Source: a virus. From it: 34,543 nt of DNA. The position numbers were made by a program, and so were the translations under genes. Position 1 is the first letter of the stretch. Every line of letters starts with the position of its first letter. Below, piece by piece: positions 16,170 to 30,078 of this stretch. The DNA is taken from the IMG/VR virus record IMGVR_UViG_3300010151_007800, positions 1 to 34,543 of that record; one strand, written 5' to 3'. The notes under the pieces were generated by a model. That model saw only the letters and a program-made list of their open reading frames with translations. It had not been told where the DNA came from and did no database searches.

Positions 16170-16634
16170 TCACATCACTTCATTAATTTTCCTTTGGATT
16201 TTTAAATTGTCATATTGAGAAATATAATCGCTACAAATTCCCGCACAATTTAATTCTTTATGTTCGTATTTTTCCGGTAAAACACAAATCGAATTAGGGG
16301 TCAATATCTGCCCAGGAAAGGTCCAAATATATTTTTGTGATGTAAGAGTAACCGCATCATTCTGATGCCAAAAACAATGAACAGATCCTTCTTTGATCAT
16401 AGCAAATAGCGCGTCAATATTTTTTGCATGACACCATAATTTCTCATTTTTTAAAAACTCTACACTAATCTTATACTCGGGTGTGTCGTGCCCAAGGTAA
16501 AACTCACCATCCATTAACGATACATCCACCTCCACATCATAATTTTTAGATAAAGCATCAGTAATATAATTTGGATGATTTTCGTGATCAGGAATCCTTC
16601 CTTCAATGTTTCCTCTGTGTGAAATTAATATCAT
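16170..16634 (-). CDS. GDPD-like (glycerophosphodiester phosphodiesterase-fold) protein
   Basis: From the ATG at 16634 the protein has 154 residues and starts MILISHRGNIEGRIPDHENH. This reproduces the GDPD/PI-PLC-like barrel start: H6-R7 (HRG), E18-N19, then E35 and D37 in DVEVDV and H49 in YLGHDTP, matching the catalytic and metal-binding set. It is far shorter than typical GDPDs (about 240), so the second half of the barrel is missing or reduced. A frame extension upstream to 16715 would overlap the WavE-like gene by 77 bases and adds unrelated sequence, so 16634 (4 bases after that stop) is chosen. It is last in the glycan cassette. A role in removing or transferring a glycerophosphate-type decoration, or in phosphodiester sugar chemistry, is inference. 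Confidence 0.72.
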   Translation of the reverse strand: MILISHRGNIEGRIPDHENHPNYITDALSKNYDVEVDVSLMDGEFYLGHDTPEYKISVEFLKNEKLWCHAKNIDALFAMIKEGSVHCFWHQNDAVTLTSQKYIWTFPGQILTPNSICVLPEKYEHKELNCAGICSDYISQYDNLKIQRKINEVM

Positions 16635-16638
16635 TGTT

Positions 16639-17475
16639 TTATTGTAGTTTGCAAGCGGAATGATCGTTGACATAACACTCCCACTTGTATGAAAAATTTT
16701 TGATCGAATTATCAAACGCCCAGTTTTCTTTTAAAAAATTTTCAAAATTTAGATCGCGTGTATGATCGGAACTCACCAAATTTCCAAAATGTTCCGGGCC
16801 CACCTTGGCGCTTACAAACTTATAAGCTATGTATCTTTCGTGCGAAATTATCCTCTTATCTGTATTGTACGGAATATTATAATAATTAATTATATCATCT
16901 TTATAGCCGAATGTCCAGTAATCGCTAATATACCAGCACACCTTTTGTTTATTTTTCCCCCAACCTAAAGTTAATAATTTCTTTTTAAAAATATCATTAG
17001 GCGGCTTGTCGATTTTCTGTTTCCACCTTGGAATAAACTCATTCAAGTTTTCCAATTTTTGATCAGCTCTCAGTTTAAGATAGTAATCACACTGAGGATA
17101 TATTTCTTTCGCTAAATTGACTCCCCTTTTGGTTGTCAAAATATGGTAATTTAAATTTGAGCCAGGTATCTGCGGGATAATCTCATCTGATCGAACATTA
17201 AATTCTTTTCCCTTAATACCTCGCTCGCGTGAAGATTTATTATTCGTAGTTATGCTTAAAACTTCACCGCTCTCAATACTATCATTTGCTATGAAGACAG
17301 TATTTTCTTTAACGTATTTATTTAAACACGAATCATAGCTGCTAACCACAATATTATCAAATCCGCTGTTTTTGTAATAGCGCACAAGATCTTCCATTTG
17401 GTCGGCGTTTACCGAATATCCTTGCAATATAATTACGACATCATCAAAATCAAAGTGTTTCCATTCAGACTTCAT
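16639..17475 (-). CDS. WavE-like LPS glycosyltransferase
   Basis: Starting at the ATG at 17475, which forms an ATGA overlap with the RuBisCO-like gene, the protein has 278 residues. It begins with VVIILQGYSVNADQMEDLVR and contains CDYYLKLRADQKLENLNEF, a Rossmann-type opening and the KxRxD motif typical of the WavE/GT-A-like family that builds LPS core or capsule. Near the C-terminus lies a conserved HERYIAYKF segment. The frame could extend to 17490 but the coupled ATG is better supported. It would act in the host cytoplasm, transferring a sugar to a surface glycan. Donor and acceptor cannot be read from sequence; the neighbouring nucleotidyltransferase may supply the donor. Confidence 0.72.
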   Translation of the reverse strand: MKSEWKHFDFDDVVIILQGYSVNADQMEDLVRYYKNSGFDNIVVSSYDSCLNKYVKENTVFIANDSIESGEVLSITTNNKSSRERGIKGKEFNVRSDEIIPQIPGSNLNYHILTTKRGVNLAKEIYPQCDYYLKLRADQKLENLNEFIPRWKQKIDKPPNDIFKKKLLTLGWGKNKQKVCWYISDYWTFGYKDDIINYYNIPYNTDKRIISHERYIAYKFVSAKVGPEHFGNLVSSDHTRDLNFENFLKENWAFDNSIKNFSYKWECYVNDHSACKLQ

Positions 17476-18659
17476 TCGACATATCCCCACTTTGAAATTG
17501 CTTCTTTGTACTCCTCTTTCGGCACATCATCAATAGCTTGACGCATTGCCATAGCGCCAAATACAGTACCTCTAGGATGACCATGAATTGCCCCTCCCAC
17601 ATTTGCCATATAGTCAACCCCAAATCTTTTATTTATAGCCTTAATTAAACCTGGGTGCATACCACAACTTAAAGCTGGCATTACATTATGTTGACGAAGG
17701 GTAGTCAAGGTTGTTTGAAGTTCAACTTTGTTGTCACTCATATACCCACCCCACATTCCAGCATGGATAAAATCAACGCCCATCAAGCCAGCAAGATGAC
17801 AAACAACATTCCACTCAATATGATAGTCGTGAGCTTTGTTTGTTAAAATTTTATCACCACTTTTTTGAAAATGAAGAAATAAAGGTAAATCTAGTTCGCG
17901 TAAAGATTTATAAATTCCCAACCCACTCCAGAAATTTACATGAACCGAATTTCCTCCAAGACTATGAACTTGTTTTGCACGTTCCAATAAATAAGGAGAG
18001 TCCGAGTTTATACACACGGAATAAATTACTTTTTTATTTTTTAAATAATCCATTATTAAAGGTACTCTCTTTTCTATGGGGCACATGGCTGGATTTGACA
18101 TAATCTCATCTTCTTTAATAAAATTAACTCCTCCGTCAACCATCTGTTTCACCATCTCTAAAAGAATCTCTGGAGTTATTCCAATTTTCGGCTTAACAAT
18201 TCCGCCGAGGACGGGTTTATCGTAAACTCCGGTAAACTCTCGAATTCCCTTAATCCCAAACTGCGGGCCCATAAAATATTCATCCTCTATCTTTCTAGGA
18301 AAACAAATATTTAAAACATGACATTTTTCCACAATGTCAATATCCATTTGGCCACCCATTATTTGACACAAAATATGAGAGATGCCGTCGTGTTTAAAAT
18401 CTGTATTTACAATTGGAAAAGCTATTTTAACCTTACCTTGTTTTTTCTCTTTTAAAGTATTTTCATCTTCTATCACAATACAGGAATGTCTTTCAAACAA
18501 TTCGTCAGTCTCCCACGAATTGCGAACATTTGGGTTCCCGACGCTTTGACCGATTGCTAATGCCCAAGCCGCATCTCTTAGTGTGGTTTTGGAGCATAAA
18601 AAATATTCAACTATGAAATAATCATCTGTATTAATATTTTTAGTGAATATATTAAACAT
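17472..18659 (-). CDS. RuBisCO-like protein (RLP, form IV type)
   Basis: A 395-residue relative of the RuBisCO large subunit. The barrel motifs are clear: GGIVKPKIGITPE (152-164, K156/K158 equal K175/K177 of plant RuBisCO), GVNFIKEDEIMSNP with K182, D184 and E185 (equal K201 carbamate, D203, E204), FIHAG with H299 (H327), ALSCGMH with S331 and G333 (S379, G381), and VGGAIHGHPRG with G355/G356 (G403/G404). Carboxylase residues are changed: H294 to Q265, R295 to K266, N123 probably to Gly, and loop-6 K334 to Y306. It therefore keeps the metal centre but not the CO2-fixing chemistry. Known RLPs are enolases, isomerases or sugar-acid decarboxylases/transcarboxylases; the substrate here is unknown. 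The gene is enclosed by sugar genes and overlaps the WavE-like gene (ATGA), so a glycan-precursor role is inferred. Confidence 0.9.
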   Translation of the reverse strand: MFNIFTKNINTDDYFIVEYFLCSKTTLRDAAWALAIGQSVGNPNVRNSWETDELFERHSCIVIEDENTLKEKKQGKVKIAFPIVNTDFKHDGISHILCQIMGGQMDIDIVEKCHVLNICFPRKIEDEYFMGPQFGIKGIREFTGVYDKPVLGGIVKPKIGITPEILLEMVKQMVDGGVNFIKEDEIMSNPAMCPIEKRVPLIMDYLKNKKVIYSVCINSDSPYLLERAKQVHSLGGNSVHVNFWSGLGIYKSLRELDLPLFLHFQKSGDKILTNKAHDYHIEWNVVCHLAGLMGVDFIHAGMWGGYMSDNKVELQTTLTTLRQHNVMPALSCGMHPGLIKAINKRFGVDYMANVGGAIHGHPRGTVFGAMAMRQAIDDVPKEEYKEAISKWGYVE

Positions 18660-18714
18660 TAGGCTCCGTCTTTGACGTGTCTATTTCAACAAAATCATAA
18701 ATTTCATTTCTCAT
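18652..18714 (-). CDS. Possible 20-codon leader ORF before the RLP gene
   Basis: The ORF encodes MRNEIYDFVEIDTSKTEPNV. Its ATG lies inside the last codons of the cupin gene and its TAA overlaps the first codons of the RLP gene (stop 18652-18654, RLP ATG 18657-18659), so it fills the 44-base gap exactly. Possible readings: a coupling ORF that delivers ribosomes to the RLP start, the remnant of a lost gene, or chance. No good Shine-Dalgarno sits before the RLP ATG other than in this ORF, which mildly favours coupling. It has no recognisable domain. Confidence 0.3.
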   Translation of the reverse strand: MRNEIYDFVEIDTSKTEPNV

Positions 18715-19024
18715 ATTTATCTCCCGGTATTGAAGGAACTTTTATAATTAACACTTTGCAGTCCTCCAAAAAGACTGGTGCCGCCCATTCTTCTTTTTCG
18801 ATTACGAAAAGTTGACCGGCGTTAATTTCCTGATCACAAACTTTCATTTTTCCCTCAATCAATAAATTAAACTCATTAGATAATTTGTGAAAATGAGGAG
18901 CCCAATATTGATCTTTCTTATATTCGTGAACGCCTACTTCAAAGTCTTCTGTTTGCAGAAGACTTGGTTCAAAGTTTCCAATAAACCAACCTCGTGTATA
19001 GTCTTTCAAATTATAGACTTTCAT
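18704..19024 (-). CDS. Single-domain cupin protein
   Basis: The 106 residues fold as one cupin barrel: motif 1 APHFHKLSNEFNLLIEGKMKV (positions 42-62: H44, H46, E51) and motif 2 GQLFVIEKEEWAAPVFLEDC (70-89). Motif 2 lacks the usual His, so metal binding is incomplete. The opening KVYNLKDYTRGWFIGNFEPS is of a kind seen repeatedly in phage and bacterial glycan clusters beside nucleotidyltransferases. Cupins in such clusters often isomerise or epimerise sugars or sense them; no reaction can be assigned here. The ATG at 19024 overlaps the end of the nucleotidyltransferase gene by 14 bases, implying coordinated expression. Confidence 0.75.
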   Translation of the reverse strand: MKVYNLKDYTRGWFIGNFEPSLLQTEDFEVGVHEYKKDQYWAPHFHKLSNEFNLLIEGKMKVCDQEINAGQLFVIEKEEWAAPVFLEDCKVLIIKVPSIPGDKYEK

Positions 19025-19745
19025 AATACTTCCTTAAAAATTTTTCTAAGTCATCTGGAACTCCAACCGCATTATGTTGAAAATTTGCAACATGATATAT
19101 GGAAATATTTTTACCATTATTTATAAGATAGTTGTAAGTTGGACCAACATAAAATTCGCCATTTGGTGCCGTATCTTTATTTTCCATCATCTCCATAGCT
19201 GATTCAACAAAATCTCTGCCATGTTTCCAATAATGAATTCCATTTAAAGATATATCGCTGATAACAACCTTTTCTTTAATTCTCTTTACATTCCCACGCT
19301 GATCGATTTCAGCATAACTATTCTTGGGAGTTGTGGAGGTATATGTCACGATAGCCCCATCTACATCCGGGTATCTAACGCAATGTAAAAACTTTTTAAA
19401 ATCCCAAAACATAATTTGATCACAATTAGCAATAATTAATTCTTCCTGATTATTGATATACTCCTTCATCGCTAAACAAGTATCAGTGGGACCAGATGTT
19501 ATTTCGTCTACAATTTTTATTCGGAGATTAGCACACACATTTTCCAAAATGTTTACTATTCGATCAATATCTTTTGTACGTCGTAAAACAAACAAGAATC
19601 TAGCATTCTCGACTTTACTGGTGAAGGCCTCTATCGCTCTTTGTATCATGGGTTTCCCACAAATATCTATAAGGAATTTTGGTCCGATAAAACGAGATCC
19701 TTCAAAGCGACTTCCGAGCCCAGCCATAGGTATTAAAATATTCAT
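19011..19745 (-). CDS. Sugar-phosphate nucleotidyltransferase
   Basis: A 244-residue NTP_transferase-family enzyme. The N-terminus MNILIPMAGLGSRFEGSRFI carries the nucleotide-binding GxGSRF loop, followed by GPKFLIDICGKPMIQ with the conserved lysine K23, and IIANCDQIMF at about 105-114 supplies the metal-binding Asp. The C-terminal GEFYVGPTYNYLINNG and the ending match short RmlA/HddC-like enzymes without a left-handed helix domain. It would couple a sugar-1-phosphate to NTP, giving an activated sugar for one of the glycosyltransferases. Which nucleotide and sugar is not readable. It overlaps the RmlC-like gene by ATGA at its start and the cupin at its end. Confidence 0.85.
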   Translation of the reverse strand: MNILIPMAGLGSRFEGSRFIGPKFLIDICGKPMIQRAIEAFTSKVENARFLFVLRRTKDIDRIVNILENVCANLRIKIVDEITSGPTDTCLAMKEYINNQEELIIANCDQIMFWDFKKFLHCVRYPDVDGAIVTYTSTTPKNSYAEIDQRGNVKRIKEKVVISDISLNGIHYWKHGRDFVESAMEMMENKDTAPNGEFYVGPTYNYLINNGKNISIYHVANFQHNAVGVPDDLEKFLRKYYESL

Positions 19746-20008
19746 TTGTTATATTTCTCTTTTTTAGTGGGATTTTTTGCTTCCTCATAATCAGACTTTA
19801 ACATACCTAAAATGCGTGAATCCAAGTTTTCCATTGGTTTGTCCCACTGATAATGTAAGCCACACACGACGCCTTTATGGGAAAAGGAAATATTGTCTTG
19901 GCAAAAATCTTCTTCTAGTTCTTCGCTGATGGAGCGAGAAAAGGATTCAAAAAAATATCCCCTGCTATCAGTATATGACTTGCCTTTAAATAATTTGCAA
20001 TTCTTCAT
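19742..20008 (-). CDS. Truncated RmlC-like (dTDP-sugar 3,5-epimerase) protein
   Basis: From the ATG at 20008 (a GTG one codon earlier is also possible) the protein has 88 residues. The first 60 match the start of dTDP-4-dehydrorhamnose 3,5-epimerases: YTDSRGYFFESFSRS, then DFCQDNISFSHKGVVCGLHY and QWDKPM, with the catalytic-type His in GLHYQ. Normal RmlC proteins (about 180) continue with GKLVRV... and the second half of the barrel including the proton-donor Tyr. Here the sequence changes after KPM to an unrelated Lys-rich helical tail (ENLDSRILGMLKSDYEEAKN). It is therefore unlikely to epimerise sugars alone. It could be a decayed gene still in frame, or a re-used small domain. Its preserved ATGA coupling to the next gene suggests it is still translated. 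Confidence 0.65.
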   Translation of the reverse strand: MKNCKLFKGKSYTDSRGYFFESFSRSISEELEEDFCQDNISFSHKGVVCGLHYQWDKPMENLDSRILGMLKSDYEEAKNPTKKEKYNK

Positions 20009-20011
20009 CAC

Positions 20012-20209
20012 TTAATTTGGCTTCCCCGCTAATTCTTTTAAAAGTGAAGCAATCTTCATATCACTTTCATTTACTTTACTAATTAATTTTCTTGCTTCTT
20101 TCGGCGCAAAACGAAAAGACAGCCTCAATATATCCATCCAATTGACATTATTTTTTGATCTAATGTTTTCAATATCGTTAATTATTTCATCATCTGTTCT
20201 TTCAGACAT
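20012..20209 (-). CDS. Small helical protein of unknown function
   Basis: A 65-residue charged, all-helical protein (DEIINDIENIRSKNNVNWMD; ILRLSFRFAPKEARKLISKV). The start NNVNWMDILRL...AP.EA is of a kind I associate with small proteins in nonulosonic-acid and other sugar clusters of bacteria and phages, but I know no function for it. The ATG at 20209 has a strong GAGGAG site and overlaps the formyltransferase gene by 28 bases. Conservation of a helical mini-protein between two sugar enzymes suggests an accessory or carrier-like partner; this is inference. Confidence 0.7.
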   Translation of the reverse strand: MSERTDDEIINDIENIRSKNNVNWMDILRLSFRFAPKEARKLISKVNESDMKIASLLKELAGKPN

Positions 20210-20766
20210 TTTATCTCCTCAATTGTAGTGTTCCAACCATTCGGTAAATTATTCCAAAGTCCTTTTAAAATTTTTGAACAATGATGAGATCCTTCTTCTT
20301 TATTCTGCGGAGTTCTAATATAATTTTCATTTGTAAAATTATCCCATTCTGCAATAAACAATTTTTCAACTTCATCTTTAAGACGCTGATATGTTAAAGC
20401 CAAGGTATTTTCAGTTGGACCAAAAGCGACTTTCGTTTGAAAAATAACACCGCCTGTATCAATGCCCTCGTCCATAAAATGTATAGTAACACCTTTTAGA
20501 GTGTCATCAAAAAAACTCCAAAAATTTGGATCAGCGCCGCGATTCCATGGCAAATACGATATATGTAAATTAAGAATGGAATATCTATCCAAAACATTTT
20601 TTTTAATTATATGACGATAACCATAGCTTATAACATAATGGGGATCTATTTTTAGAAAATCATCAAGTTGTAATTTTTTATCTTCGATTACTATCTCATA
20701 ACCAGCATCGCGCAAAAATTCTACGACTGAACTATGATCGCCTAAATAAAGAATCTTATTTTTCAT
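20182..20766 (-). CDS. Sugar N-formyltransferase (methionyl-tRNA formyltransferase fold)
   Basis: A 194-residue formyltransferase-domain protein. The core NLHISYLPWNRGADPNFWSF (66-85) and GVTIHFMDEGIDTGGVIFQ (92-110) carry the catalytic trio N66, H68 and D103 expected for 10-formyl-THF-dependent N-formyltransferases. It lacks the C-terminal tRNA-binding domain of Fmt, so it most likely acts on an amino-sugar. In the context of a dehydratase, aminotransferase and NeuB-type synthase, the likely target is the 4-amino group made by the aminotransferase, a step normally done by an acetyltransferase. The ATG at 20766 forms an ATGA overlap with the synthase gene. Confidence 0.85.
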   Translation of the reverse strand: MKNKILYLGDHSSVVEFLRDAGYEIVIEDKKLQLDDFLKIDPHYVISYGYRHIIKKNVLDRYSILNLHISYLPWNRGADPNFWSFFDDTLKGVTIHFMDEGIDTGGVIFQTKVAFGPTENTLALTYQRLKDEVEKLFIAEWDNFTNENYIRTPQNKEEGSHHCSKILKGLWNNLPNGWNTTIEEIKCLKEQMMK

Positions 20767-21758
20767 ATCATTACTTCTGTCAAAACTTCATCTTCGTCAA
20801 TATCTTTTTTTGCTTTTTTACCAATCATTTCGTAATATCGAAAAGCTTCAATCGAATTTTCTAAAGTCGGGCGTTTGGTCGTAATGTTTTTTTCAGTGAA
20901 ACATTCTCCTTTCTTAATCACACATAAGGATACCACAGAACGCATCGCTTTTTTAAAATTATATTCACTTGCCGTAAACTTACCACTTTTGCTTTTACAA
21001 ACATCTTCCGCAGTTCGAATATTTTGAACCATTTGCTTTAATTCACTTGGCTCTATTGCAAAGCTATGATCGGGACCAACCAGATTCCGAGACAAAGTAA
21101 AATGTTTTTCTATAACAGAAGCACCCTTAGCCACTGCCAGAGGAGGAATAAGAATTCCCGGCGTATGATCTGATAACCCCACTTTAATATTGGAAATACT
21201 GTTTTTAATATTACTAATCTGATTTAAATTAATATCCGTAAACGGAGTTGGATATGCATTGTTCCCATGCAGGATGGTTATATCTGGTGTTGTATTTTCG
21301 ATTTTTACCCATTCAATAATATCACGAATAGAATCTAAATCACTACCAATGCCCGCTGTAATAATCAACGGTAGTTTTGTTGAAGCTACGCATCTTACAA
21401 ATCTTGGATCAGTGGATTCAAAACCAGCAATTTTCAACCTTTTCACTCCGATTTCATAAAGTTCTTCAACCGCCCGTTCGTCAAATGGGGTTGACATAAA
21501 CTCAATTCCATTATCATCACAATAAAGTTTTAAATCGCGATGCCAGCCGCGAGGTAATTCTATATCCTTTATCAGTTTAGGGATATTCTTGTAACCGGCA
21601 AAATCGGGCGTATTTTTAGAATAAAGAGTATCAGACGAATATGTTTGAAACTTTACTGCATCAGCTTTGGCGGAAACCGCTACATCAACAAGAGCCAACG
21701 CTTGTTGGTAATTTTGATTATGATTGGCACCTGCTTCCGCTACAATAAAAGTTTTCAT
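20763..21758 (-). CDS. NeuB-family nonulosonic acid synthase
   Basis: A 331-residue enzyme with a complete NeuB layout: AEAGANHNQNY (7-17), DAVKFQTYS (33-41), FMSTPFD (87-93), HGNNAYP (164-170), GLSDHTPG (194-201) and EKHFTLSRNLVGPDHSF (217-233), followed by a C-terminal SAF/antifreeze-like domain (about 270-331). H198 and H219 are spaced as the two metal-binding His residues of NeuB. The enzyme condenses phosphoenolpyruvate with a six-carbon amino-sugar to give sialic, pseudaminic or legionaminic acid. The neighbouring inverting-type dehydratase and DegT aminotransferase favour a pseudaminic/legionaminic-type product, but NeuB, PseI and LegI cannot be separated by eye. Confidence 0.93.
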   Translation of the reverse strand: MKTFIVAEAGANHNQNYQQALALVDVAVSAKADAVKFQTYSSDTLYSKNTPDFAGYKNIPKLIKDIELPRGWHRDLKLYCDDNGIEFMSTPFDERAVEELYEIGVKRLKIAGFESTDPRFVRCVASTKLPLIITAGIGSDLDSIRDIIEWVKIENTTPDITILHGNNAYPTPFTDINLNQISNIKNSISNIKVGLSDHTPGILIPPLAVAKGASVIEKHFTLSRNLVGPDHSFAIEPSELKQMVQNIRTAEDVCKSKSGKFTASEYNFKKAMRSVVSLCVIKKGECFTEKNITTKRPTLENSIEAFRYYEMIGKKAKKDIDEDEVLTEVMI

Positions 21759-21838
21759 TTCTTGATAGTTGCGATAAAGGTTCCTGTTTTGTTGATCCAG
21801 TACTTGTTATCATTTTTATTTTTTTTTACTGTAGTCAT
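21755..21838 (-). CDS. 27-residue ORF bridging aminotransferase and synthase
   Basis: The ORF starts at the base directly after the aminotransferase stop (GAA TAA ATG ACT) and ends in an ATGA overlap with the NeuB-like start, so it fills the gap exactly. The product is basic and short: MTTVKKNKNDNK, then YWINKTGTFIATIKK. I recognise no family. It could be a real micro-protein, a coupling ORF, or the end of a deleted gene. Exact fit on both sides makes chance less likely than for an arbitrary short ORF. Confidence 0.4.
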   Translation of the reverse strand: MTTVKKNKNDNKYWINKTGTFIATIKK

Positions 21839-22906
21839 TTATTCTTCTCTCTCTAAGTTGACTATCTTTATTATACCATCTAAATTTTCTTTTTTTAAAT
21901 TTTGATGAATAGGTAAATTTATTATGCGATCTCTAAATCCCTCGGTTTGAGGTAAGTTCGATGGCGCGTAAAATAATTTTGTTTGATGTAAAAATGGGTA
22001 ATGATACGAGCCACATAAATTATTTTTTCTCATTTTTTTCCTTAGCTCACCTGATGAGCTTTTGTTCAAGATCAAGGTTGCAAGATAATAAGATGAATTT
22101 GCATCATGATTAGTAAAGTAACCAACCGAAGGATTTATATGGTTTTTCAAATACTCAAAATGGTCTTTTCTAATTTTTACATTCTCAAAGCAAGTCGAAA
22201 GTTGAGATAATCCCAGAACCGCGTTAAGATTGTTCATATAAAAATTAAAACCATTGTCGATAATATCATAAGAATCTCCAATATCTTGTCTGCCAAAATT
22301 CCGATATCGGCGAATATAATCATTAGCTTCTTTATTATCAGTAGCTAACAAACCACCACTACTCATCGCTACAGGCTTAACGGGGTGAAAAGAAAAGAAG
22401 GTATAATCAGACTCGATAATGGGAGCAATACAGTGAGCCGAATCGACAACAACTATATCACCCCATTTAGTTTTTTTGATGTTGTCAATAAGGTTATCTA
22501 CATTACTCACGCCACCATACAAAACTGGCATAACTATGGATTTATTAAAGTCGGGACGATGTTTTCTCTTTAGACAATAGGAATCAAAATCAAATAATAA
22601 GTTTTCATCTACATCCACAAAATGAACTGTATGTCCGTTCTTTCGAGCTGCCCAGGCGGGTGACACAAACCCTAGTGATGGAGTATAAACATCACACTTT
22701 CCATATTTATCATATAAATAAGCAAATAAACAAAAAGCTGCGGACGATGCTGAGTTTAGGCTGATATTATATTTCTTCTTCGAATGAGTTGCATATTCTG
22801 TTTCGAATAATCCCACCTTTTCTCCGAAACCGATGTTACCAGATTCTAATATTTCTGAAACTTTTAGAATATCTTGTTTAGTGATTGTTGGCTCAAATGA
22901 CCTCAT
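21839..22906 (-). CDS. DegT/DnrJ/EryC1-type sugar aminotransferase (PseC-like)
   Basis: A 355-residue PLP-dependent aminotransferase. Signs are LNSASSAAFCLFAYL (50-64, cofactor phosphate site), TPSLGFVSPAWAARKNG (75-91), VVVDSAHCIAP (152-162, Asp pairing the PLP nitrogen) and FFSFHPVKPVAMSSGGLL (170-187) with K177 as the Schiff-base lysine. Such enzymes add the 4-amino group to UDP-4-keto-6-deoxyhexoses in pseudaminic, legionaminic and perosamine-like pathways. The Gly-Glu-Gly-Gly of many members is SSGG here, a mild change. The start is a TAATG overlap with the methyltransferase stop. A relic of a second aminotransferase start lies upstream at 23658-23741. Confidence 0.88.
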   Translation of the reverse strand: MRSFEPTITKQDILKVSEILESGNIGFGEKVGLFETEYATHSKKKYNISLNSASSAAFCLFAYLYDKYGKCDVYTPSLGFVSPAWAARKNGHTVHFVDVDENLLFDFDSYCLKRKHRPDFNKSIVMPVLYGGVSNVDNLIDNIKKTKWGDIVVVDSAHCIAPIIESDYTFFSFHPVKPVAMSSGGLLATDNKEANDYIRRYRNFGRQDIGDSYDIIDNGFNFYMNNLNAVLGLSQLSTCFENVKIRKDHFEYLKNHINPSVGYFTNHDANSSYYLATLILNKSSSGELRKKMRKNNLCGSYHYPFLHQTKLFYAPSNLPQTEGFRDRIINLPIHQNLKKENLDGIIKIVNLEREE

Positions 22907-23640
22907 TACTTTAAAGTCTTATAATAGGCCTCAAGCCTATCAAGAGAAGCGGTTCTATCTTCATGAGAAGTTGGTGTAGGATCTGAATTATATAAATCAA
23001 CAATTATATAATTGGTAAAACCAACCTTTTGCAGAGGAAGTGGTACGTTATTATTGAAATAAAAATTATATCCTTTTTTACGATAAGTTTCAACTAGGTT
23101 ATTTCTCCACAATAGCTGATTGCTTATTCTCCATTTGGGATTATCTTCTTTATTACCAGATATTAGTTCATTTTCTCCAATATCTTCAAAATGTATTATG
23201 TATTTTTTAGCTATACGGATGAAATTATCCGTCACCTCATCTATACTTTCAGGTGATTGGTGTATCATAACACCCGAACTAAATACCATATCATAAGAAT
23301 TTTCTTCAAAATAATTACTTATATTAGAAAGTTTATCCAAAACAAATTTACAATTTGGAATATTATTATTACAAAAATCTATTGCCGTATCTGATATGTC
23401 GATCCCAGCTAAATCTAAATCGGGATTTCTTTTTAAAAGTTCGAATTCGAACGCTCCATAACCACACCCAACATCCAATATAGAATTAATATTTTTATCG
23501 TGACCTAATAAAATATCTAATCTAAAATCTAAAGATTCTTTACAAATTTCATTATCAAAATAGCTATCAAAATAGCTTTTTCGGCGTCTTATACCATCTA
23601 TAGTTTTGCTCCAATAATTCTCAGTTTTATTTTGTAACAT
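22906..23640 (-). CDS. Class I SAM-dependent methyltransferase
   Basis: A 244-residue protein with motif I ILDVGCGYGAFEFELLKR (54-71), the acidic loop LAGIDISDTAI and the post-motif YDMVFSSGVMIHQSP (about 114-128). The C-terminal part (KVGFTNYIIVDLYNSDPTP) is of the kind seen in pseudaminic-acid-cluster methyltransferases. Within the glycan cassette it most likely methylates a sugar hydroxyl or amine. It has its own strong GGGAGG site before the ATG at 23640, unlike most neighbours, which rely on overlap coupling. It sits between the dehydratase and the aminotransferase, where the relic at 23658-23741 suggests it was inserted later. Confidence 0.85.
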   Translation of the reverse strand: MLQNKTENYWSKTIDGIRRRKSYFDSYFDNEICKESLDFRLDILLGHDKNINSILDVGCGYGAFEFELLKRNPDLDLAGIDISDTAIDFCNNNIPNCKFVLDKLSNISNYFEENSYDMVFSSGVMIHQSPESIDEVTDNFIRIAKKYIIHFEDIGENELISGNKEDNPKWRISNQLLWRNNLVETYRKKGYNFYFNNNVPLPLQKVGFTNYIIVDLYNSDPTPTSHEDRTASLDRLEAYYKTLK

Positions 23641-23657
23641 ATTGACCTCCCAGTCTT

Positions 23658-23741
23658 CTAATTAATTGTTATACCAGTTTTTGTTAACCCTGCCAACTCA
23701 TCAATATCCTCCTTAGTAATCGAAGGTTCAAAACAATTCAT
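23658..23741 (-). pseudogene. Relic of a DegT aminotransferase N-terminus (27 codons)
   Basis: The ORF reads MNCFEPSITKEDIDELAG then LTKTGITIN and a TAG stop. It aligns with the start of the intact aminotransferase, MRSFEPTITKQDILKVSE, at M, F, E, P, I, T, K, D and I in the first dozen or so positions. Its ATG makes an ATGA overlap with the dehydratase stop (23738-23740), exactly how an aminotransferase gene would be expected to follow a PseB-type gene. The reading frame then ends and a methyltransferase begins 17 bases on. I read this as the stump left when an aminotransferase was replaced or displaced. DNA-level differences are many, so it is not a recent duplication of the intact copy. Confidence 0.7.
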
Positions 23742-24721
23742 TCAGAATCTTTTAGCCCCCTATTGATCAAAGAAAATAAAAAATCTATATCCTTATTAAC
23801 ATGAAGGGACGAATTAAATTTCTTCCCAAGATATACTTTATCATGGGTGTGCTCTTTGTTTGTATATTGAGGAAGAATACACAAGAGACTATCAGAAAGT
23901 TGCTTCGCAAATGGTAATTCAGTTTCCGATAACATATCTTCGTGAATTTTCTCGCCCGGTCGTAAACCAATTACCTCATGCTCTACTTCCTTTACTTTAT
24001 TTATCTTTTTTATAGCTTCAATTATTGTTCCCATTTCAAATGAATTGATTTTGGGTATAAATACTTCTCCGCCTTCAGCATAAGTCAAAGAATCAAGCAC
24101 AGTATCAACAGCATCAGTTAACGTAAATAAAAATCGAGTACATTCCAGAGAGGTCACTTTGATTTTTTTATCCTCCGAGATTAAATCTAACCATCGTGGA
24201 ATAAAAGAGCCTCTACTAGCAATCACATTTCCATAACGTACTGATGCGAATATAGTCGATTCTGAACTATAATCAAAATTAGTAAAAATACGTTCTGCAA
24301 TAAACTTAGTTGAGCCATACACATTAACGGGCTGACAGGCTTTATCAGTTGAGATCAACATACATTTTTTAACTCCCGCCTCCAGAGAAGCGACAGCAAC
24401 ATTTCTTGAACCATCAATATTTGTTTTAACACATTCATCTGGATGAAATTCCATATCATCCACCCTTTTTAAAGCGGCTGTGTGTATGACATAATCCGGC
24501 TTATGAATGAACATCGAAGTCTTTAGCTTTTCTAAATCCCTAACATCACCTATGATCCTGGTAATGTCAGGCTGATCGGCAAAGTAGATCGCTTGTTTCC
24601 CTTCATCTCGGCTAAAGACAATAATCTTCCACGTTGGAAAGCACTTCTTGATTTTTTTTATTAAAGCCTTTCCTAGTGAGCCCGTGCCGCCTGTTATTAA
24701 GATCTTTTTATTTATCATCAT
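23738..24721 (-). CDS. UDP-sugar 4,6-dehydratase (PseB/FlaA1 type)
   Basis: From the ATG at 24721 the protein has 327 residues. It has the Rossmann loop ILITGGTGSLGKAL (7-20), the VFSRDEGKQ strand of the FlaA1/PseB family, the NTG-like ALKRVDDMEFHPDECVKTN segment, and the active site STDKACQPVNVYGSTK with T125, D126, K127, Y135 and K139. The C-terminal LRPGEKIHEDMLSE is also typical. These enzymes turn UDP-GlcNAc into a 4-keto-6-deoxy sugar, the first step of pseudaminic/legionaminic-type pathways. The frame extends to 24751, but the doublet ATG at 24721/24718, overlapping the cytidylyltransferase stop, gives the family-like N-terminus. Confidence 0.92.
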   Translation of the reverse strand: MMINKKILITGGTGSLGKALIKKIKKCFPTWKIIVFSRDEGKQAIYFADQPDITRIIGDVRDLEKLKTSMFIHKPDYVIHTAALKRVDDMEFHPDECVKTNIDGSRNVAVASLEAGVKKCMLISTDKACQPVNVYGSTKFIAERIFTNFDYSSESTIFASVRYGNVIASRGSFIPRWLDLISEDKKIKVTSLECTRFLFTLTDAVDTVLDSLTYAEGGEVFIPKINSFEMGTIIEAIKKINKVKEVEHEVIGLRPGEKIHEDMLSETELPFAKQLSDSLLCILPQYTNKEHTHDKVYLGKKFNSSLHVNKDIDFLFSLINRGLKDSE

Positions 24722-25403
24722 GTCGTGGCTCGTCTCTATAGAGTTTTTCATACAATTGAAATTCCCATTCGTGATCTATGTCAAACGTTTCGTGTTGCGG
24801 AACCTTCCACAATTCAATATCACCAGGCTTATCAAACTTTCCCATCCACACCCCTCTGCTAATTTTTTCCAAGGAACCTCCGTATAAACAATGAGCCGCT
24901 TCATAAACGGCAGTTGAGGTTTTAGTATCCATTACTCCGTTACGGAGAGGAGTTAAAAAGTTTCCATCTGTATCCCAAAAATAATTTTTCTTTTCAATTA
25001 CACCAAACATACCGTCCGATGTTGAGTTTTTATAATCTTTCCAAAAATCATTAATAGTTTGGACCGAAATAAAGGGGCAACATGCATTGAGCATTATAAC
25101 ATATTTAGCAGGTAATTTATCCCACCATTCAAAAATTTCTGTAAGTGGAAACCCCTCAGATCTAGATGACTTTTCGCTCCTGTGAAAAATGTTTATGGGA
25201 TATTTTTTACAAATATCCTTAAGTTCATCCTCGTATACAGAGCACCAGATATTTTTATTAGGAATAACGGATTTTACTAACTTATTTAAAGCAATATCCA
25301 TCAATGTAGTGTTAGCGAAGGGGCGGGACATCTTGCCCTTACAACGATGAGAAGATAAGCGAGCTTGTACTATAATAGCAACTTCATTTGTTTTCTTTAT
25401 CAC
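24708..25403 (-). CDS. CMP-nonulosonate cytidylyltransferase (NeuA/PseF type)
   Basis: The protein carries VAIIVQARLSSHRCKGKMSRPF at its start, the nucleotide loop ARxxSxRxxGKxxRPF of NeuA/PseF/KdsB enzymes, then VIMLNACCPFI (the substrate region of the family) and an ETFDIDHEWEFQL metal-site stretch near the end. It would activate the nine-carbon acid with CTP. The open frame reaches 25490 but would then overlap the DUF115-like gene by 74 bases with unrelated residues; the GTG at 25403, 13 bases after that stop and preceded by AGGAAAG, is a better start and gives 231 residues, a normal length. It lies next to the dehydratase, as expected for this pathway. Confidence 0.87.
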   Translation of the reverse strand: MIKKTNEVAIIVQARLSSHRCKGKMSRPFANTTLMDIALNKLVKSVIPNKNIWCSVYEDELKDICKKYPINIFHRSEKSSRSEGFPLTEIFEWWDKLPAKYVIMLNACCPFISVQTINDFWKDYKNSTSDGMFGVIEKKNYFWDTDGNFLTPLRNGVMDTKTSTAVYEAAHCLYGGSLEKISRGVWMGKFDKPGDIELWKVPQHETFDIDHEWEFQLYEKLYRDEPRHDDK

Positions 25404-25416
25404 TACTATTTCTTTC

Positions 25417-26238
25417 CTAATGTTCAAGAAAAGAACTTGCTTGCTGTGCTGAAATTCTAGGTATCTTTGGGTGCCAATTACTAACTTCACTTATTAAAGA
25501 TAGGTTAACATTTTTCTTTTTTAGCCAATCATACAGTGGTCCCGTTCCTTTATGTGTTAGGTCAAATTCCCACTTTTTATAATCTAATTCGTGTTGCGTT
25601 TTGGGACTAGAATCCAAATGAATGCCGCGTCGGGGTTGAGATGATAATTTTTTCCATTTGGTTCCACCATCCAGCCCAATAGCAAAAATGTTTTTTACCC
25701 CTACGTGAAGTGCCATATAAAGCACGGTTTCAATAACAAGACTAGGACCACAAGGTCGCAAATAAGTATTATCAAAAGTTCCCTTTTCAAAATCTTCATT
25801 CTGAAGTATATAACCCATATTGTTATTAGGATAAACGTCTGGATCTAAAACTTTGCAAAAAATATCCCATTGTTGGAAATCGCCGATTCTCTGTCTAGCC
25901 ACAGATTCATCAAAGCCGCTGCTTCCGACGATGATAGGCTCTTTTTTTGCTTCATACTGATACCCAACAAAAGAATTATGAACCGGCAAATTACAATCAT
26001 TAAAAAAGTGAAAATCGCAAACATCCTGAAAGAAATCATAAGAATTTTTAATACAAAAAACCAAATTCTTTTTCAATTCATTCTGTAAAAGTTCTAATTG
26101 TGTGTCGTTGGATGAAGGGCCCGGCGCGATGATAAAACATGCCTTATCTTCATATTTATTTTTCAAAAACGAAATTCTATTTTCATACCCATCAATAAAA
26201 TAAAGCTTGTTTTTATAATCAACTGTCTGTGAAAGCAA
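25417..26238 (-). CDS. DUF115/GT42-like glycosyltransferase, possible nonulosonate transferase
   Basis: A 273-residue protein with ACFIIAPGPSSNDTQLELLQ near residues 33-52 and CGPSLVIETVLYMALHVGVK followed by NIFAIGLDGGTKWK in the second half. The APGPS loop and the S-x-V-x-E-x-x-x-x-M-A... GIDGG pattern match the DUF115 (motility accessory factor) and GT42 sialyltransferase superfamily, which transfer nonulosonic acids from CMP donors. A gene next to a CMP-transferase supports that. The start is TTG at 26238, 5 bases after the GT stop, with AGGATAG upstream; there is no nearby ATG. Donor specificity cannot be told. Confidence 0.7.
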   Translation of the reverse strand: MLSQTVDYKNKLYFIDGYENRISFLKNKYEDKACFIIAPGPSSNDTQLELLQNELKKNLVFCIKNSYDFFQDVCDFHFFNDCNLPVHNSFVGYQYEAKKEPIIVGSSGFDESVARQRIGDFQQWDIFCKVLDPDVYPNNNMGYILQNEDFEKGTFDNTYLRPCGPSLVIETVLYMALHVGVKNIFAIGLDGGTKWKKLSSQPRRGIHLDSSPKTQHELDYKKWEFDLTHKGTGPLYDWLKKKNVNLSLISEVSNWHPKIPRISAQQASSFLEH

Positions 26239-26243
26239 TAGTT

Positions 26244-27494
26244 CTATCCTACAACAAAATTAAATAATTGTTTGCCGAGATCTGCGCTATTTCCTGTTTT
26301 CTTTAGCATATATTTTCGGGCTTCTTTGCCTCGTCTAGACAATTCTTTTGGATTATCTTTCCAAAGAGTATAGGCTTCCCGTAATTGTTTTCTAGCTGAT
26401 AAAAGATCGGTATCGTACCAATTGCTCTCGCAGGAGTAAACCCCTGGAAAGACAGAATCAAAAGACGGAGTTTCGATGGTTTTTACTATAAAATTATGTT
26501 CTTTATTAACAAAGTCAACATGACCGCCGCGATCATGAACTATAACTGGTGTAGAATGTAGGATCGATTCTGCAATTGGTAGTCCAAAGCCCTCGGCTTT
26601 GCTGAATAAGGCAAACACACTTGAATTTTTATATAAAAAATTCATATTCTCTTTACTCACAAGACCATACAACAATGTCAATTGGGATTTATTTGCCTCT
26701 CCTAATTTATTAGAACAAATTCCCCTTTTATACTTCATAATTTCTTGAGCTATTTGATTTTGTTGTCTCTTTTGAAATTCAGGATCACTCACTTGAATAT
26801 TTCCATAAGTTTTTACTATCAAGTTGCAATCATCTTGATCGTGAAATTCCATAAGAAAAGCTTTTGCCACAGAAATAAGTGATTTACGATCTGTCCATTG
26901 ACCAACGGTCAAACAATTAAATTTATCTGGATTGCAAAGATTTTTATCCAAAGTAACCGATTCTACATTTGCCGCGTTTGCAAAAGAATCGTTTACTAAA
27001 TGATGAACCACACCAACTGGCATCTCATTGTCATACTCCTTCAAGGACTTGTCAAAAGATACCTTATTCCATTCACACGGAACAATTATTTTTTTTATGT
27101 CTAAGCCCAGGAATATATCATTCCAGCGAGGAGGTATCGAATCTGTTTCCCAAACAGTAAAGAAGATATTTTTCAATGAATTCCTGGCAAACATGTGAGT
27201 TTGCGGCAATTTTTGCGCGTAAACGGGTGGATGATGAACCACATAAAAATAATCTTTATCTTTGACAAAGGCTTCCATCTCTTGATTATCAACAAAAGAA
27301 TATTTATCAATCATAGCATCTTCTTCTGGTGTTAGACTATTCATTTGATCTGCGACAATGGGAACAATCTTAAAATCTACATCGATCTTTGATTTTTCAA
27401 AATAAGCCAATAGGGATTGAATATACCCACGACCAGCAACACCATATCCACTTGGATCTTTTACTTGCCCTTGATAAACTATTTTATATTTCAT
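26244..27494 (-). CDS. GT-B glycosyltransferase (family 4 type), first of three
   Basis: A 416-residue GT-B protein. The N-terminal VYQGQVKDPSGYGVAGRGYI is a glycine-rich acceptor-domain loop; the C-terminal domain shows FNCLTVGQWTDRKSLI and FALFSKAEGFGLPIAESI, whose EGFGLP..E is the nucleotide-sugar donor motif, then TPVIVHDRGGHVDFV. It resembles its two upstream neighbours. It would elongate a surface glycan in the host cytoplasm. The ATG at 27494 forms an ATGA overlap with the second glycosyltransferase. Confidence 0.85.
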   Translation of the reverse strand: MKYKIVYQGQVKDPSGYGVAGRGYIQSLLAYFEKSKIDVDFKIVPIVADQMNSLTPEEDAMIDKYSFVDNQEMEAFVKDKDYFYVVHHPPVYAQKLPQTHMFARNSLKNIFFTVWETDSIPPRWNDIFLGLDIKKIIVPCEWNKVSFDKSLKEYDNEMPVGVVHHLVNDSFANAANVESVTLDKNLCNPDKFNCLTVGQWTDRKSLISVAKAFLMEFHDQDDCNLIVKTYGNIQVSDPEFQKRQQNQIAQEIMKYKRGICSNKLGEANKSQLTLLYGLVSKENMNFLYKNSSVFALFSKAEGFGLPIAESILHSTPVIVHDRGGHVDFVNKEHNFIVKTIETPSFDSVFPGVYSCESNWYDTDLLSARKQLREAYTLWKDNPKELSRRGKEARKYMLKKTGNSADLGKQLFNFVVG

Positions 27495-28732
27495 AATACT
27501 ACACTTAGTAATTGCTGGTCTTGAGATGCTAATGCTTCCATAATAGAATCAGTATATTTATTATAAATTATTTCTTCTGTCATAGTTTTGTTCAAGTATT
27601 TCTTTAGCTTATTTGCTAGTGATTTAGAAGCCACCTGATTCTTGTGCATACTTCGCAGAGACTTTTTATAAGCCCATTCTTTTACAAAGCACCAACTTGA
27701 ATCCGCCCGTAAAACGCCTTCCCATTGAGCTTCCTTCTGTATAGTTTTAATATCATAGGGAACTGAAGTAAACATCTGCTTGTTTTTAGTTTTACCATTT
27801 TTGTCTTTAGTAGGGACGTATAGATAATCAACTTGACCACCCCAAGCAGGGCAGATAACAGGTAATCCACTATACGCAGCTTCAAAAACCGGCAAGCCGA
27901 ATCCTTCACCGTGAGAAATATTAATAAGTGCTTTGATTTTTGGATTACAGTACAATGCAGTCATCTCATCCTCTCTCATATCTCCATGGAGCAAATAAAT
28001 ATTGCATTTCTTATCTTTATATTCACTTAGCGTTTCGTCTAACTTAATTTTACAAGCCATCCGATCTCTAACGGAATTCTTGGCAAGCGAAGTTTTTATT
28101 ACAAGCCCAACTTCTTGATCATAGAATTCCTCGACAAACCATTTAATTGTATTTTCTAAATTCTTGCGCGGAATCCAAGTACCAACAACCAAAAAATTAT
28201 AATCATCGACTAACTCTAAATCAATCTTAGCTGGTTCAATATTTTTTACAGGATATCCAATCACATCAATCTGGCGATCTACTTTTGCAATAAATTGTTC
28301 TCCATTTTGATTTTGAACCGGAAAATCAGTATTTTCGAAGCCAAATTTCGCATGTTCAGAAACCACAATTATCTTATCCATTTGTTGTGATTTCTCAATC
28401 CACTGAGGAGCAATTTTTGTTGTTTCGATTCCAGCCGTAACGCCAATGTTTATCGGAGCTAATCGCTCCCATTCATTCGGTATGGTGACTTGAATTGATA
28501 AATCAAATTGACCACCTTGTTGTCCATAAGCAATAGTCCTTTGCAAAATTGAATCAATCCATTTTCTTTCTTCTGTGTCTTCCCACAGCCAGCTAGTTGA
28601 TCCCCATGGAGTTGTAATTAAATAAATATCAAATAAATCCTCTCTACTCTCAAGTGACCTAAGTACCAATCGTGTATGTTCTCCATACCCGCTTTGGCTT
28701 AGGGCTGGACCTCTTACTAATATTTTTTTCAT
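27491..28732 (-). CDS. GT-B glycosyltransferase (family 4 type), second of three
   Basis: The ATG at 28732 makes an ATGA overlap with the third glycosyltransferase, giving 413 residues that begin MKKILVRGPALSQSGYGEHT; the open frame to 28777 adds unrelated residues. The donor domain contains YNFLVVGTWIPRKNLENTIK and INISHGEGFGLPVFEAAYSG, with GLPVICPAWGGQVDYL after it, the normal GT4 layout. It differs from the neighbours in its middle but shares the opening SGYG loop. Sugar specificity is unknown. Confidence 0.85.
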   Translation of the reverse strand: MKKILVRGPALSQSGYGEHTRLVLRSLESREDLFDIYLITTPWGSTSWLWEDTEERKWIDSILQRTIAYGQQGGQFDLSIQVTIPNEWERLAPINIGVTAGIETTKIAPQWIEKSQQMDKIIVVSEHAKFGFENTDFPVQNQNGEQFIAKVDRQIDVIGYPVKNIEPAKIDLELVDDYNFLVVGTWIPRKNLENTIKWFVEEFYDQEVGLVIKTSLAKNSVRDRMACKIKLDETLSEYKDKKCNIYLLHGDMREDEMTALYCNPKIKALINISHGEGFGLPVFEAAYSGLPVICPAWGGQVDYLYVPTKDKNGKTKNKQMFTSVPYDIKTIQKEAQWEGVLRADSSWCFVKEWAYKKSLRSMHKNQVASKSLANKLKKYLNKTMTEEIIYNKYTDSIMEALASQDQQLLSVVL

Positions 28733-30069
28733 ACTGCTAACAACTCCCATCTTTTGTAATTTTTTCGCGTTTCCCATGAACCATGTTTCCTATGAGTGTC
28801 CAAAAGCAACTTTTCCCATTGTTCCGCAAATTTAGTAAAGCTATAATTCTCCATGACGTGTTTTCTTCCCGCTTTTCCTAATTTTTTTCTTTTTTCTCGA
28901 CCGAAATCGTACATTTTTCGGAAAGATTGGGATACTAATTCTTGCGATAATCTGTCTTCATAAATAAATGGCACCTCTTGAGAACCAATAATCGCTTTTG
29001 ATGAAGGTTCCATGCCGATTCCAAATTCATACTCTTTTATACCAGGTTGAGTGACATTTCTTTCAAGCATCATCTCTTCTGAAACTTTGTCTAGGAGCGT
29101 AACTTGTTCTTGTAAGCCACCGGTCATTGTAACTATAATTGGTGTTTCGCAAGAGAGGGATTCAAATGTAGCAAGACCAAATCCTTCCGCATCTGAGACG
29201 TTTATAGTACAATCGGCCGCACTATAAATTTTCGAAAGAGCATCTGGTGGAATTTTTTGTGCAGATATTAAAACTTCTCTATTGTTAAGATTTAGGTTCT
29301 GGATAATAGCATATAAATCTTGTCCATTGGGATCTTTTGGCTCAGTGTGCATTAGTAATATTGTTTTTGATGTTTTTCCATCTTTTTTAAGTTTTTTTAT
29401 AAAGTCATTATACCAATAAATCAAAGATCCGCTTTGTTTGCGACGAGCATTTCTATTGTTCCAAAAAATTAAAAAATCATCATCTTCTAAACCAAAATGT
29501 TCTTTTCGAAAAGAGCTTCTTTCAAGTTCACTAATGGGGGAAAATAATTCACTAGGAATTGCATGAGGGATATACACTTCTTGAGTATCCGGCGAAACGC
29601 TTTGAACAATATCCGAAGTTACTTTAGATATTGTAGCTATGACATCAGTAGAATCATACCACGACTTGTTGAATGTTGGGTAAGGAAAATTATCCCATAC
29701 ATGATAATATACCATAGGAACCAAAGAGCGAATCTCGTTTTCAATATCCCATAGCCACGGATAAAATCTTGGATCTGTCATAAACCACAAAACATCTGGC
29801 TTGTGTGTTCTGAGAACAGAACGAATAGTTTCTTGAGTGCCATACCCATCTACAGGATAGATTACCCAATCATCTCCAAATTCGTCAGTCTTTTGTGGAT
29901 TATGATCCTTATGTTTTATTGCACCGCCAAGGCTAATAAATTCAAACTTTCCTGTTTTAAGCATCTCAACAATAAAATATTTTGTTTGAGTTCCTACACC
30001 GGATGGTGAGAGGGGGTGATCTGAGATTGTTAATACTTTTATTTTTTTTGCTGGTTCTAGTTCTTCCAT
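28729..30069 (-). CDS. GT-B glycosyltransferase (family 4 type), third of three
   Basis: A 446-residue GT-B protein from the ATG at 30069, preceded by AAAGGAG; a TTG one codon upstream is the only longer start. It opens with KVLTISDHPLSPSGVGTQTK and carries FLIFWNNRNARRKQSG in the hinge, INVSDAEGFGLATFESLS as the donor motif and CETPIIVTMTGGLQEQ. The TMTGGLQEQV variant and the wide hinge are typical of phage and aquatic-bacterial members. It is the first of the three glycosyltransferases in transcription order and closes the glycan cassette; the nuclease gene lies 9 bases upstream. Confidence 0.86.
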   Translation of the reverse strand: MEELEPAKKIKVLTISDHPLSPSGVGTQTKYFIVEMLKTGKFEFISLGGAIKHKDHNPQKTDEFGDDWVIYPVDGYGTQETIRSVLRTHKPDVLWFMTDPRFYPWLWDIENEIRSLVPMVYYHVWDNFPYPTFNKSWYDSTDVIATISKVTSDIVQSVSPDTQEVYIPHAIPSELFSPISELERSSFRKEHFGLEDDDFLIFWNNRNARRKQSGSLIYWYNDFIKKLKKDGKTSKTILLMHTEPKDPNGQDLYAIIQNLNLNNREVLISAQKIPPDALSKIYSAADCTINVSDAEGFGLATFESLSCETPIIVTMTGGLQEQVTLLDKVSEEMMLERNVTQPGIKEYEFGIGMEPSSKAIIGSQEVPFIYEDRLSQELVSQSFRKMYDFGREKRKKLGKAGRKHVMENYSFTKFAEQWEKLLLDTHRKHGSWETRKNYKRWELLAV

Positions 30070-30078
30070 CAAACTCCT

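Follow-up and report, generated by a model that had tools for sequence, protein, structure and literature searches.

A RuBisCO-like protein clade in phage and cellular surface-glycan cassettes that may serve nucleotide-sugar supply

Few enzyme families have been studied as thoroughly as the RuBisCO superfamily. For its non-carboxylating members, the RuBisCO-like proteins (RLPs), the roles found are methionine/SAM salvage and apiose catabolism. The closest characterized relatives include MtnW of Geobacillus kaustophilus (2,3-diketo-5-methylthiopentyl-1-phosphate enolase, PDB 2oem) and the OiaX-type RLPs (3-oxo-isoapionate-4-phosphate decarboxylase), which serve sugar catabolism. The RLP of R. 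rubrum is described as an isomerase (Imker 2008, as cited in PMC6302742). Ocean RuBisCO homologues outside the known forms were reported in GOS 2007; the available text (PMC1821046) describes some groups in which N123, H327, and other residues are not conserved, gives them neither a function nor a gene context, and allows comparison with the present clade by description only. RbcL-like proteins on viral contigs from landfill viromes are annotated automatically as CO2 fixation, with no glycan cassette reported in the available portion of that study (PMC12607003). On the glycan side, the CDP-6-glucitol pathway of C. jejuni HS:5, likened here by description, uses a sugar nucleotidyltransferase to activate a ketose phosphate for a surface polysaccharide: the cytidylyltransferase HS5.18 converts fructose-6-P to CDP-6-fructose in capsule synthesis, and a reductase, not an RLP, follows (PMC10918830). 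The first-pass annotation of the present DNA knew of no RLP role in glycan synthesis, and our literature search likewise found no paper tying an RLP to polysaccharide, lipopolysaccharide, or glycan synthesis, nor one on IV-GOS. A sugar-phosphate isomerase role in a glycan setting was not found described for any other member of the RuBisCO family.

We analyzed an RLP gene in the window, i.e., the whole 34.5-kb IMG/VR virus record (Table 1). On the minus strand, the gene order is nucleotidyltransferase, cupin, RLP, WavE-like glycosyltransferase, and glycerophosphodiester phosphodiesterase (GDPD)-like gene. The nucleotidyltransferase/cupin and RLP/WavE-like pairs overlap, and the GDPD-like gene starts a few bases beyond the WavE-like stop, giving an arrangement like a translationally coupled operon. 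The cassette that had been recognized from the sequence is thus real, and it contains a further member, the GDPD-like gene, which the first-pass annotation did not mention, nor did it mention the nonulosonic-acid-type gene set upstream. This set, accompanied by three GT4 glycosyltransferases, consists of an RmlC-like fragment, a formyltransferase, a NeuB/PseI-type synthase, a PseC-type aminotransferase, a methyltransferase, a PseB-type dehydratase, a cytidylyltransferase, and an MptE-like gene. Downstream of the cassette are phage late genes encoding an endolysin and T4-type baseplate wedge proteins. Within the upstream set, the PseB/PseC/NeuB-type genes, the formyltransferase, and the Pse-associated methyltransferase (20182-25490, minus strand) possibly direct the synthesis of an unusual N-formylated, methylated sialic-acid-like sugar by the phage.

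Table 1. Positions of the cassette and its glycan context in the window, and of related fusion genes in other phages
Feature	Position	Strand	Details and basis
RuBisCO-like protein (RLP)	17472..18659	-	395 aa; ATG start, zero internal stops
Nucleotidyltransferase	19011..19745	-	NTP_transf_3/RmlA-like, PMAGxGxRF motif; cassette's first gene; Pfam; PDB best 4evw
Small cupin	18704..19024	-	106 aa; overlaps nucleotidyltransferase stop; weak Cupin_7 match; phrog_24762
WavE-like glycosyltransferase	16639..17490	-	overlaps RLP stop; PF07507 weak, 21.6 bits vs 27
GDPD-like mini-enzyme	16170..16634	-	~154 aa; true start near 16634; HRG/EN/ExD/HD/K residues; phrog_34507
Glycan context (nonulosonic-acid set)	19742..26238	-	Pfam/NCBIfam
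Three GT4-type glycosyltransferases	26244..30072	-	context; Pfam
Nucleotidyltransferase::RpiB fusions, cyanophages	L210:2172-3329; L211:4775-5932; L215-L244		with cupin and GDPD-like genes
Nucleotidyltransferase::RibB fusions	L213:6001-7428 (phage S-SKS1); L245-L254		

The RLP matched PF00016 at 121 bits, far above the cut-off of 30.1, placing it in the RuBisCO superfamily as the first-pass annotation had proposed. An AlphaFold2 model was built from 30 clade sequences (pLDDT 93.8, pTM 0.91), and its best solved neighbors were RuBisCOs and RLPs (Foldseek E 5.6e-30, VIA Z ~45). These solved structures aligned to the model with Z 40-45 and an rmsd of ~2-2.7 Å across 350-390 residues; for G. kaustophilus MtnW, VIA-align gave Z 44.2 and 2.4 Å over 369 residues at 30% identity. 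The scores against NCBIfam family models were far below the respective cut-offs for form I-III RuBisCO (rubisco_III, 171 vs 497 bits; PRK04208, 160 vs 438 bits), for MtnW (TIGR03332 and PRK09549, 134 vs 514 and 163 vs 409 bits), and for OiaX (NF042437, 139 vs 700 bits).

The active-site residues were compared in a table of 26 clade rows mapped to spinach numbering. In the window RLP, K156/K158 correspond to K175/K177, K182/D184/E185 to K201/D203/E204, H299 to H327, and S331 to S379, and both glycines, G355 and G356, are present. H294, R295, and K334 are replaced by Gln265, Lys266, and Tyr306, respectively; all residue calls of the first-pass annotation, including the KPK motif and the three substitutions, were correct. 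K175, K177, K201, D203, E204, F199, S379, and G381 were kept in 26/26 rows, the metal-site lysine being putatively carbamylated, while E60G, T65N, N123G, H294Q, K334Y, and G380C were found in every row. Gln265 and Tyr306 are invariant clade-wide; Lys266 alternates with Ser, and once with Arg, and His299 with Gln. The window RLP carries the whole clade signature, namely Gln294, Tyr334, Cys380, Gly60, and Gly123 together with an adjacent nucleotidyltransferase. The residues for metal binding and enolate formation, and most of those at the phosphate-1 site, are therefore retained, and those that handle CO2 and the distal phosphate are lost. Because K334, H294, E60, and N123 are missing, the protein should not use CO2. 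MtnW has the fold, the carbamate-lysine metal site, and the phosphate-1 site in common with the window RLP, but it has lost K177, keeps H294 and W66, and differs in clade and gene context. The OiaX-type RLPs have the metal site in common with the window RLP, as well as the use of sugar-derived phosphates, which is proposed for the latter; their rows keep K334, H294, and R295 and carry Ala or Ser at K177, the reverse of the present clade.

Two maximum-likelihood trees covered MtnW, the RLPs of OiaX type, RuBisCO of forms I, II, and archaeal III, and three groups of Bacteroidota RLPs; in both, the window RLP and its relatives formed a single group apart from all of these (support 100/99 and 100/100). 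The viral scan identified relatives on 350 IMG/VR contigs, while none was found in 50,697 GenBank phage records and PHROGs contains no family for the protein. The clade is carried by cells as well as phages and is not phage-only: scattered members occur in SAR11, Patescibacteria, Crocinitomicaceae, Verrucomicrobia, Elusimicrobia, Azospirillum, and Legionella among bacteria, and in the DPANN archaea Nano-, Pace-, and Woesearchaeota. Carriage is rare in these hosts (2/397 Pelagibacterales and 4/22 searched genomes of the Legionella genus group), and the phage and cell sequences interleave in the tree, suggesting transfer. The first-pass annotation had raised the concern that the contig might be a chimera of host and phage DNA. 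This was ruled out because RLP relatives share contigs with a T4-type Gp23, the major capsid protein (12/20 RLP contigs examined), and the same cassette occurs on many phage contigs; the window also has flanking phage genes in common with a 126-kb contig, that behind locus L004.

A different group of short RLPs (~370-410 aa; L271-L286) was observed in ~8% of 395 sampled Bacteroidota genomes. These proteins group with RLPs encoded on plasmids of Vibrio nigripulchritudo and Ensifer, the Vibrio plasmid gene adjoining transketolase-like and FGGY kinase genes. Considered as possible kin of the present clade, they were rejected, as they fall outside it and lack the partner genes; none of the cassette partners was found at 14 flanked Bacteroidota loci with a recovered RLP.

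We then surveyed the neighborhoods of the clade members by longest-ORF gene calls at the best 80 of the 350 viral loci, so that the counts apply to those members that most resemble the window. The recurring module was nucleotidyltransferase-cupin-RLP-GDPD-like. Within 8 genes of the RLP, a nucleotidyltransferase was present at 79 of these 80 loci, a GDPD-like gene at 69, and a cupin at 58, and the nearby nucleotidyltransferases belong to one subfamily. Dereplication at 90% identity left 58 viral loci flanked by 3 or more genes on both sides; within 3 genes of the RLP, the nucleotidyltransferase, GDPD-like, and cupin genes were found at 54, 47, and 44 of them, compared with means of 14.0, 12.0, and 11.0 for random positions in the same loci. 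At the cellular loci, the corresponding counts were 11/11 for the nucleotidyltransferase and 8/11 for the GDPD-like gene. All 64 nearby nucleotidyltransferases (64/64) share the strand of the RLP. Other neighbors were glycan genes, i.e., FkbM and other methyltransferases, glycosyltransferases, dehydratases, epimerases, and an aminotransferase. We consider it very probable that the clade is linked to glycan synthesis. The glycan reading of the first-pass annotation, a metal-enolate RuBisCO fold coupled to a nucleotidyltransferase and a cupin, was thus borne out in dereplicated viral and cellular loci, but its coupling to a WavE-like transferase was not: the WavE-like gene is specific to the window's locus, other genes occupy its slot elsewhere, and the clade-wide fourth partner is the GDPD-like gene. 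Neither outcome named by the first-pass annotation as refuting its proposal was observed: the protein lies outside the MtnW clade and its glycan neighborhood recurs, and a chimeric contig was rejected.

The HRG, E-N, E-x-D, HD, and K residues of a GDPD are invariant in the alignment of the GDPD-like proteins. The window gene matched the GDPD 7e0v in a PDB profile search (E 7e-4), and a homologue in phage DSL-LC03 is annotated as GDPD. Pfam (PF03009) gave no match for the window gene or one viral relative, and the fold search of its model returned the GDPDs 2pz0 and 3no3 as best but weak matches (E 0.013-0.017, TM 0.38-0.56). PF03009 GDPD proteins are encoded near the RLP in a nanoarchaeon and a verrucomicrobium (L052 and L046), and at L031 the nucleotidyltransferase carries a fused HAD phosphatase. 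Part of the cassette is missing at L003/L135 and L196. At L003/L135, which in the first scan gave the closest viral relative (68%), the RLP is accompanied by a methyltransferase, with no nucleotidyltransferase within 10 kb. In Legionella (L055-L057, L119, and L120), the RLP-nucleotidyltransferase pair, which is missing from most sampled genomes of the genus group, is divergent from an adjoining LicD-family gene; LicD was seen in the Legionella loci only. Members of the LicD family transfer phosphocholine or polyol phosphate from CDP-linked donors. Together with the GDPD-like enzyme, LicD in Legionella suggests a phosphodiester-linked substituent. At six SAR11 loci (L044, L045, L047, L048, L050, and L051), the RLP lies between two different nucleotidyltransferases, of which the upstream one has lost the GxGxR motif.

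The nucleotidyltransferase, cupin, and GDPD-like families of the cassette are also encoded by cultured cyanophages, which lack the RLP. Bellamy and SynMITS9220M01 carry the nucleotidyltransferase as a fusion with RpiB (PF02502, E 4e-32; PDB ribose-5-phosphate isomerases, E 1e-25), which takes the same slot in the nucleotidyltransferase-cupin-GDPD cassette as the RLP; the two have unrelated folds, and the likeness is one of position and inferred role only. The fusion was detected in 30 IMG/VR contigs, mostly in the order nucleotidyltransferase::RpiB-cupin-GDPD, and no RLP was found near it in any of them. With the fusion phages serving as positive controls, a search for RpiB found none in 21 whole records of RLP phages, the window among them. 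Conversely, no RLP was detected in 20 whole fusion records; the control for this search is indirect, namely that a sister of the profile used, A1, does detect RLP contigs. In S-SKS1-like phages, the nucleotidyltransferase is instead fused to RibB, 3,4-dihydroxy-2-butanone-4-phosphate (DHBP) synthase (PDB, E 2e-48), and the same frame was found in 9 further contigs. The RpiB swap keeps both the cupin and GDPD-like genes, whereas the RibB fusion loci have neither. The nucleotidyltransferase tree places the RpiB fusion together with RLP-associated enzymes of SAR11 and nanoarchaea (92/91), and the RibB fusions nest inside the RLP-associated nucleotidyltransferases. The RpiB fusion contigs are 80-98% identical and collapse to one lineage in this tree; the RibB fusions likewise form one, so the independent swaps are few. 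Two further features of these phages were observed: the S-SKS1 RibB fusion adjoins GmhA-like and transaldolase genes, a second uncharacterized phage sugar pathway, and S-SM2 and Bellamy encode a nucleotidyltransferase-nucleotidyltransferase fusion.

Ribulose-5-phosphate is the product of RpiB and the substrate of RibB, and ribulose-type phosphates are acted on by enzymes of the RuBisCO fold. These relations are most simply explained if the RLP fills an isomerase slot and handles a pentulose phosphate or a close analogue of one; the cyanophage nucleotidyltransferase::RpiB-cupin-GDPD cassette is likely a functional stand-in for the RLP cassette. We therefore favor, on balance, a role of the RLP as a metal-enediolate sugar-phosphate isomerase that replaces RpiB and feeds a nucleotide-activated sugar into a phage-encoded surface glycan; the isomerase reaction itself is somewhat more probable than not. 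The sugar acid that the first-pass annotation had offered as an alternative product found no support; the RpiB swap points to sugar-phosphate isomerization. Gene co-occurrence gives no substrate for the RLP, and a pentulose phosphate is put forward only tentatively.

In the proposed mechanism, Mg2+ would be held by carbamylated K182 with D184 and E185, while K156, K158, and the phosphate-1 site (S331, G333, G355, and G356) would bind a phosphorylated ketose, probably a pentulose phosphate. A C2-C3 enediolate stabilized by Mg2+ would form, and its reprotonation would give an isomeric or epimeric ketose phosphate. The R. rubrum RLP provides a precedent for enediolate isomerization by an RLP. The adjacent nucleotidyltransferase would then convert the product to an NDP-sugar or NDP-polyol, a step for which ketose-phosphate activation by HS5.18 is a precedent. 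The cupin and locus-specific methyl- and glycosyltransferases may tailor and transfer the activated sugar, and the GDPD-like enzyme may handle a phosphodiester. RpiB acts at the C1/C2 carbonyl and RuBisCO-type chemistry at C2-C3 beside a C1 phosphate, so the two steps need not match, and the nucleotidyltransferases of the RLP and fusion cassettes may differ in specificity.

The RLP could instead catalyze another enolate reaction within the glycan cassette, such as decarboxylation or aldol-type C-C chemistry yielding a branched or shortened sugar phosphate, by analogy with RibB on ribulose-5-P and OiaX on oxo-isoapionate phosphate. The S-SKS1-like fusion of RibB to a nucleotidyltransferase of the same kind would fit such a reaction, and RLP clades elsewhere catalyze decarboxylation and transcarboxylation (PMC6302742). 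However, the CO2-side residues K334 and H294 that the OiaX rows keep as Lys and His are Tyr and Gln throughout the clade, and it is the RpiB swap, not the RibB set, that keeps the cupin and GDPD-like genes. We regard this explanation as unlikely. Still less likely are a step downstream of nucleotide activation, with an NDP-linked ketose as the substrate of the RLP, and a non-catalytic role of the RLP in partnership with the nucleotidyltransferase. CDP-6-fructose shows that NDP-ketose intermediates exist (PMC10918830), but the invariant metal site and lysines argue for catalysis, all or almost all rows retain S379, G381, and G403, which belong to the phosphate-1 site for a monophosphate, and the RpiB part of the nucleotidyltransferase fusion is an enzyme of sugar monophosphates. 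A methionine/SAM-salvage enzyme, of the MtnW or MTA-isoprenoid type, that lies near glycan genes only via a shared accessory region is highly improbable: RLPs of known function include salvage enzymes and Geobacillus MtnW is among the closest fold matches, but the MtnW models score far under their cut-offs, the clade separates from MtnW at full support, K177 is invariant in the clade and absent from the MtnW rows, and the partner genes recur across dozens of dereplicated loci. A bona fide or degenerate carboxylase for phage CO2 fixation, encoded by an rbcL auxiliary metabolic gene, would agree with the function assigned automatically to viral RbcL (PMC12607003), but it is the least probable of these explanations given the loss of E60, N123, H294, and K334 in 26/26 rows, the tree placement, and the lack of a small subunit or phosphoribulokinase among the annotated neighbors.

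A sugar-phosphate isomerase role is thus our preferred reading. The new clade, large and well separated, ties a known fold to glycan assembly, a role that would add a biosynthetic function to those of the RLPs. That this RuBisCO-superfamily clade has lost carboxylation and serves nucleotide-sugar supply for surface glycans is moderately probable. The broader proposal, that a RuBisCO fold was recruited as a nucleotide-sugar-pathway isomerase that can be exchanged for RpiB, with T4-type phages as its main vehicle of spread, is plausible but falls slightly short of probable. If true, it would be new to the superfamily as a biological role and probably also as a reaction, and would explain at least some of the virome rbcL hits now read as CO2 fixation; the clade cautions against taking viral rbcL hits as carbon fixation. 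The RpiB and RibB fusions offer a testable guess at the substrate, a pentulose phosphate. The cassette would represent an uncharacterized phage tool for surface sugars, of which SAR11, DPANN archaea, and Legionella encode versions of their own.

Several other features were observed. At the SAR11 locus L045, the RLP island lies between thyX and an Mrp/ParA gene. In the window, genes for an M90-like metallopeptidase and a trypsin-like protease (30920-31612 and 33110-33970) are located near PhoH-PIN, and a 1913-aa ORF without a PHROG match (6500-12241, minus strand), beside the baseplate genes, possibly encodes a long tail fiber or adhesin.
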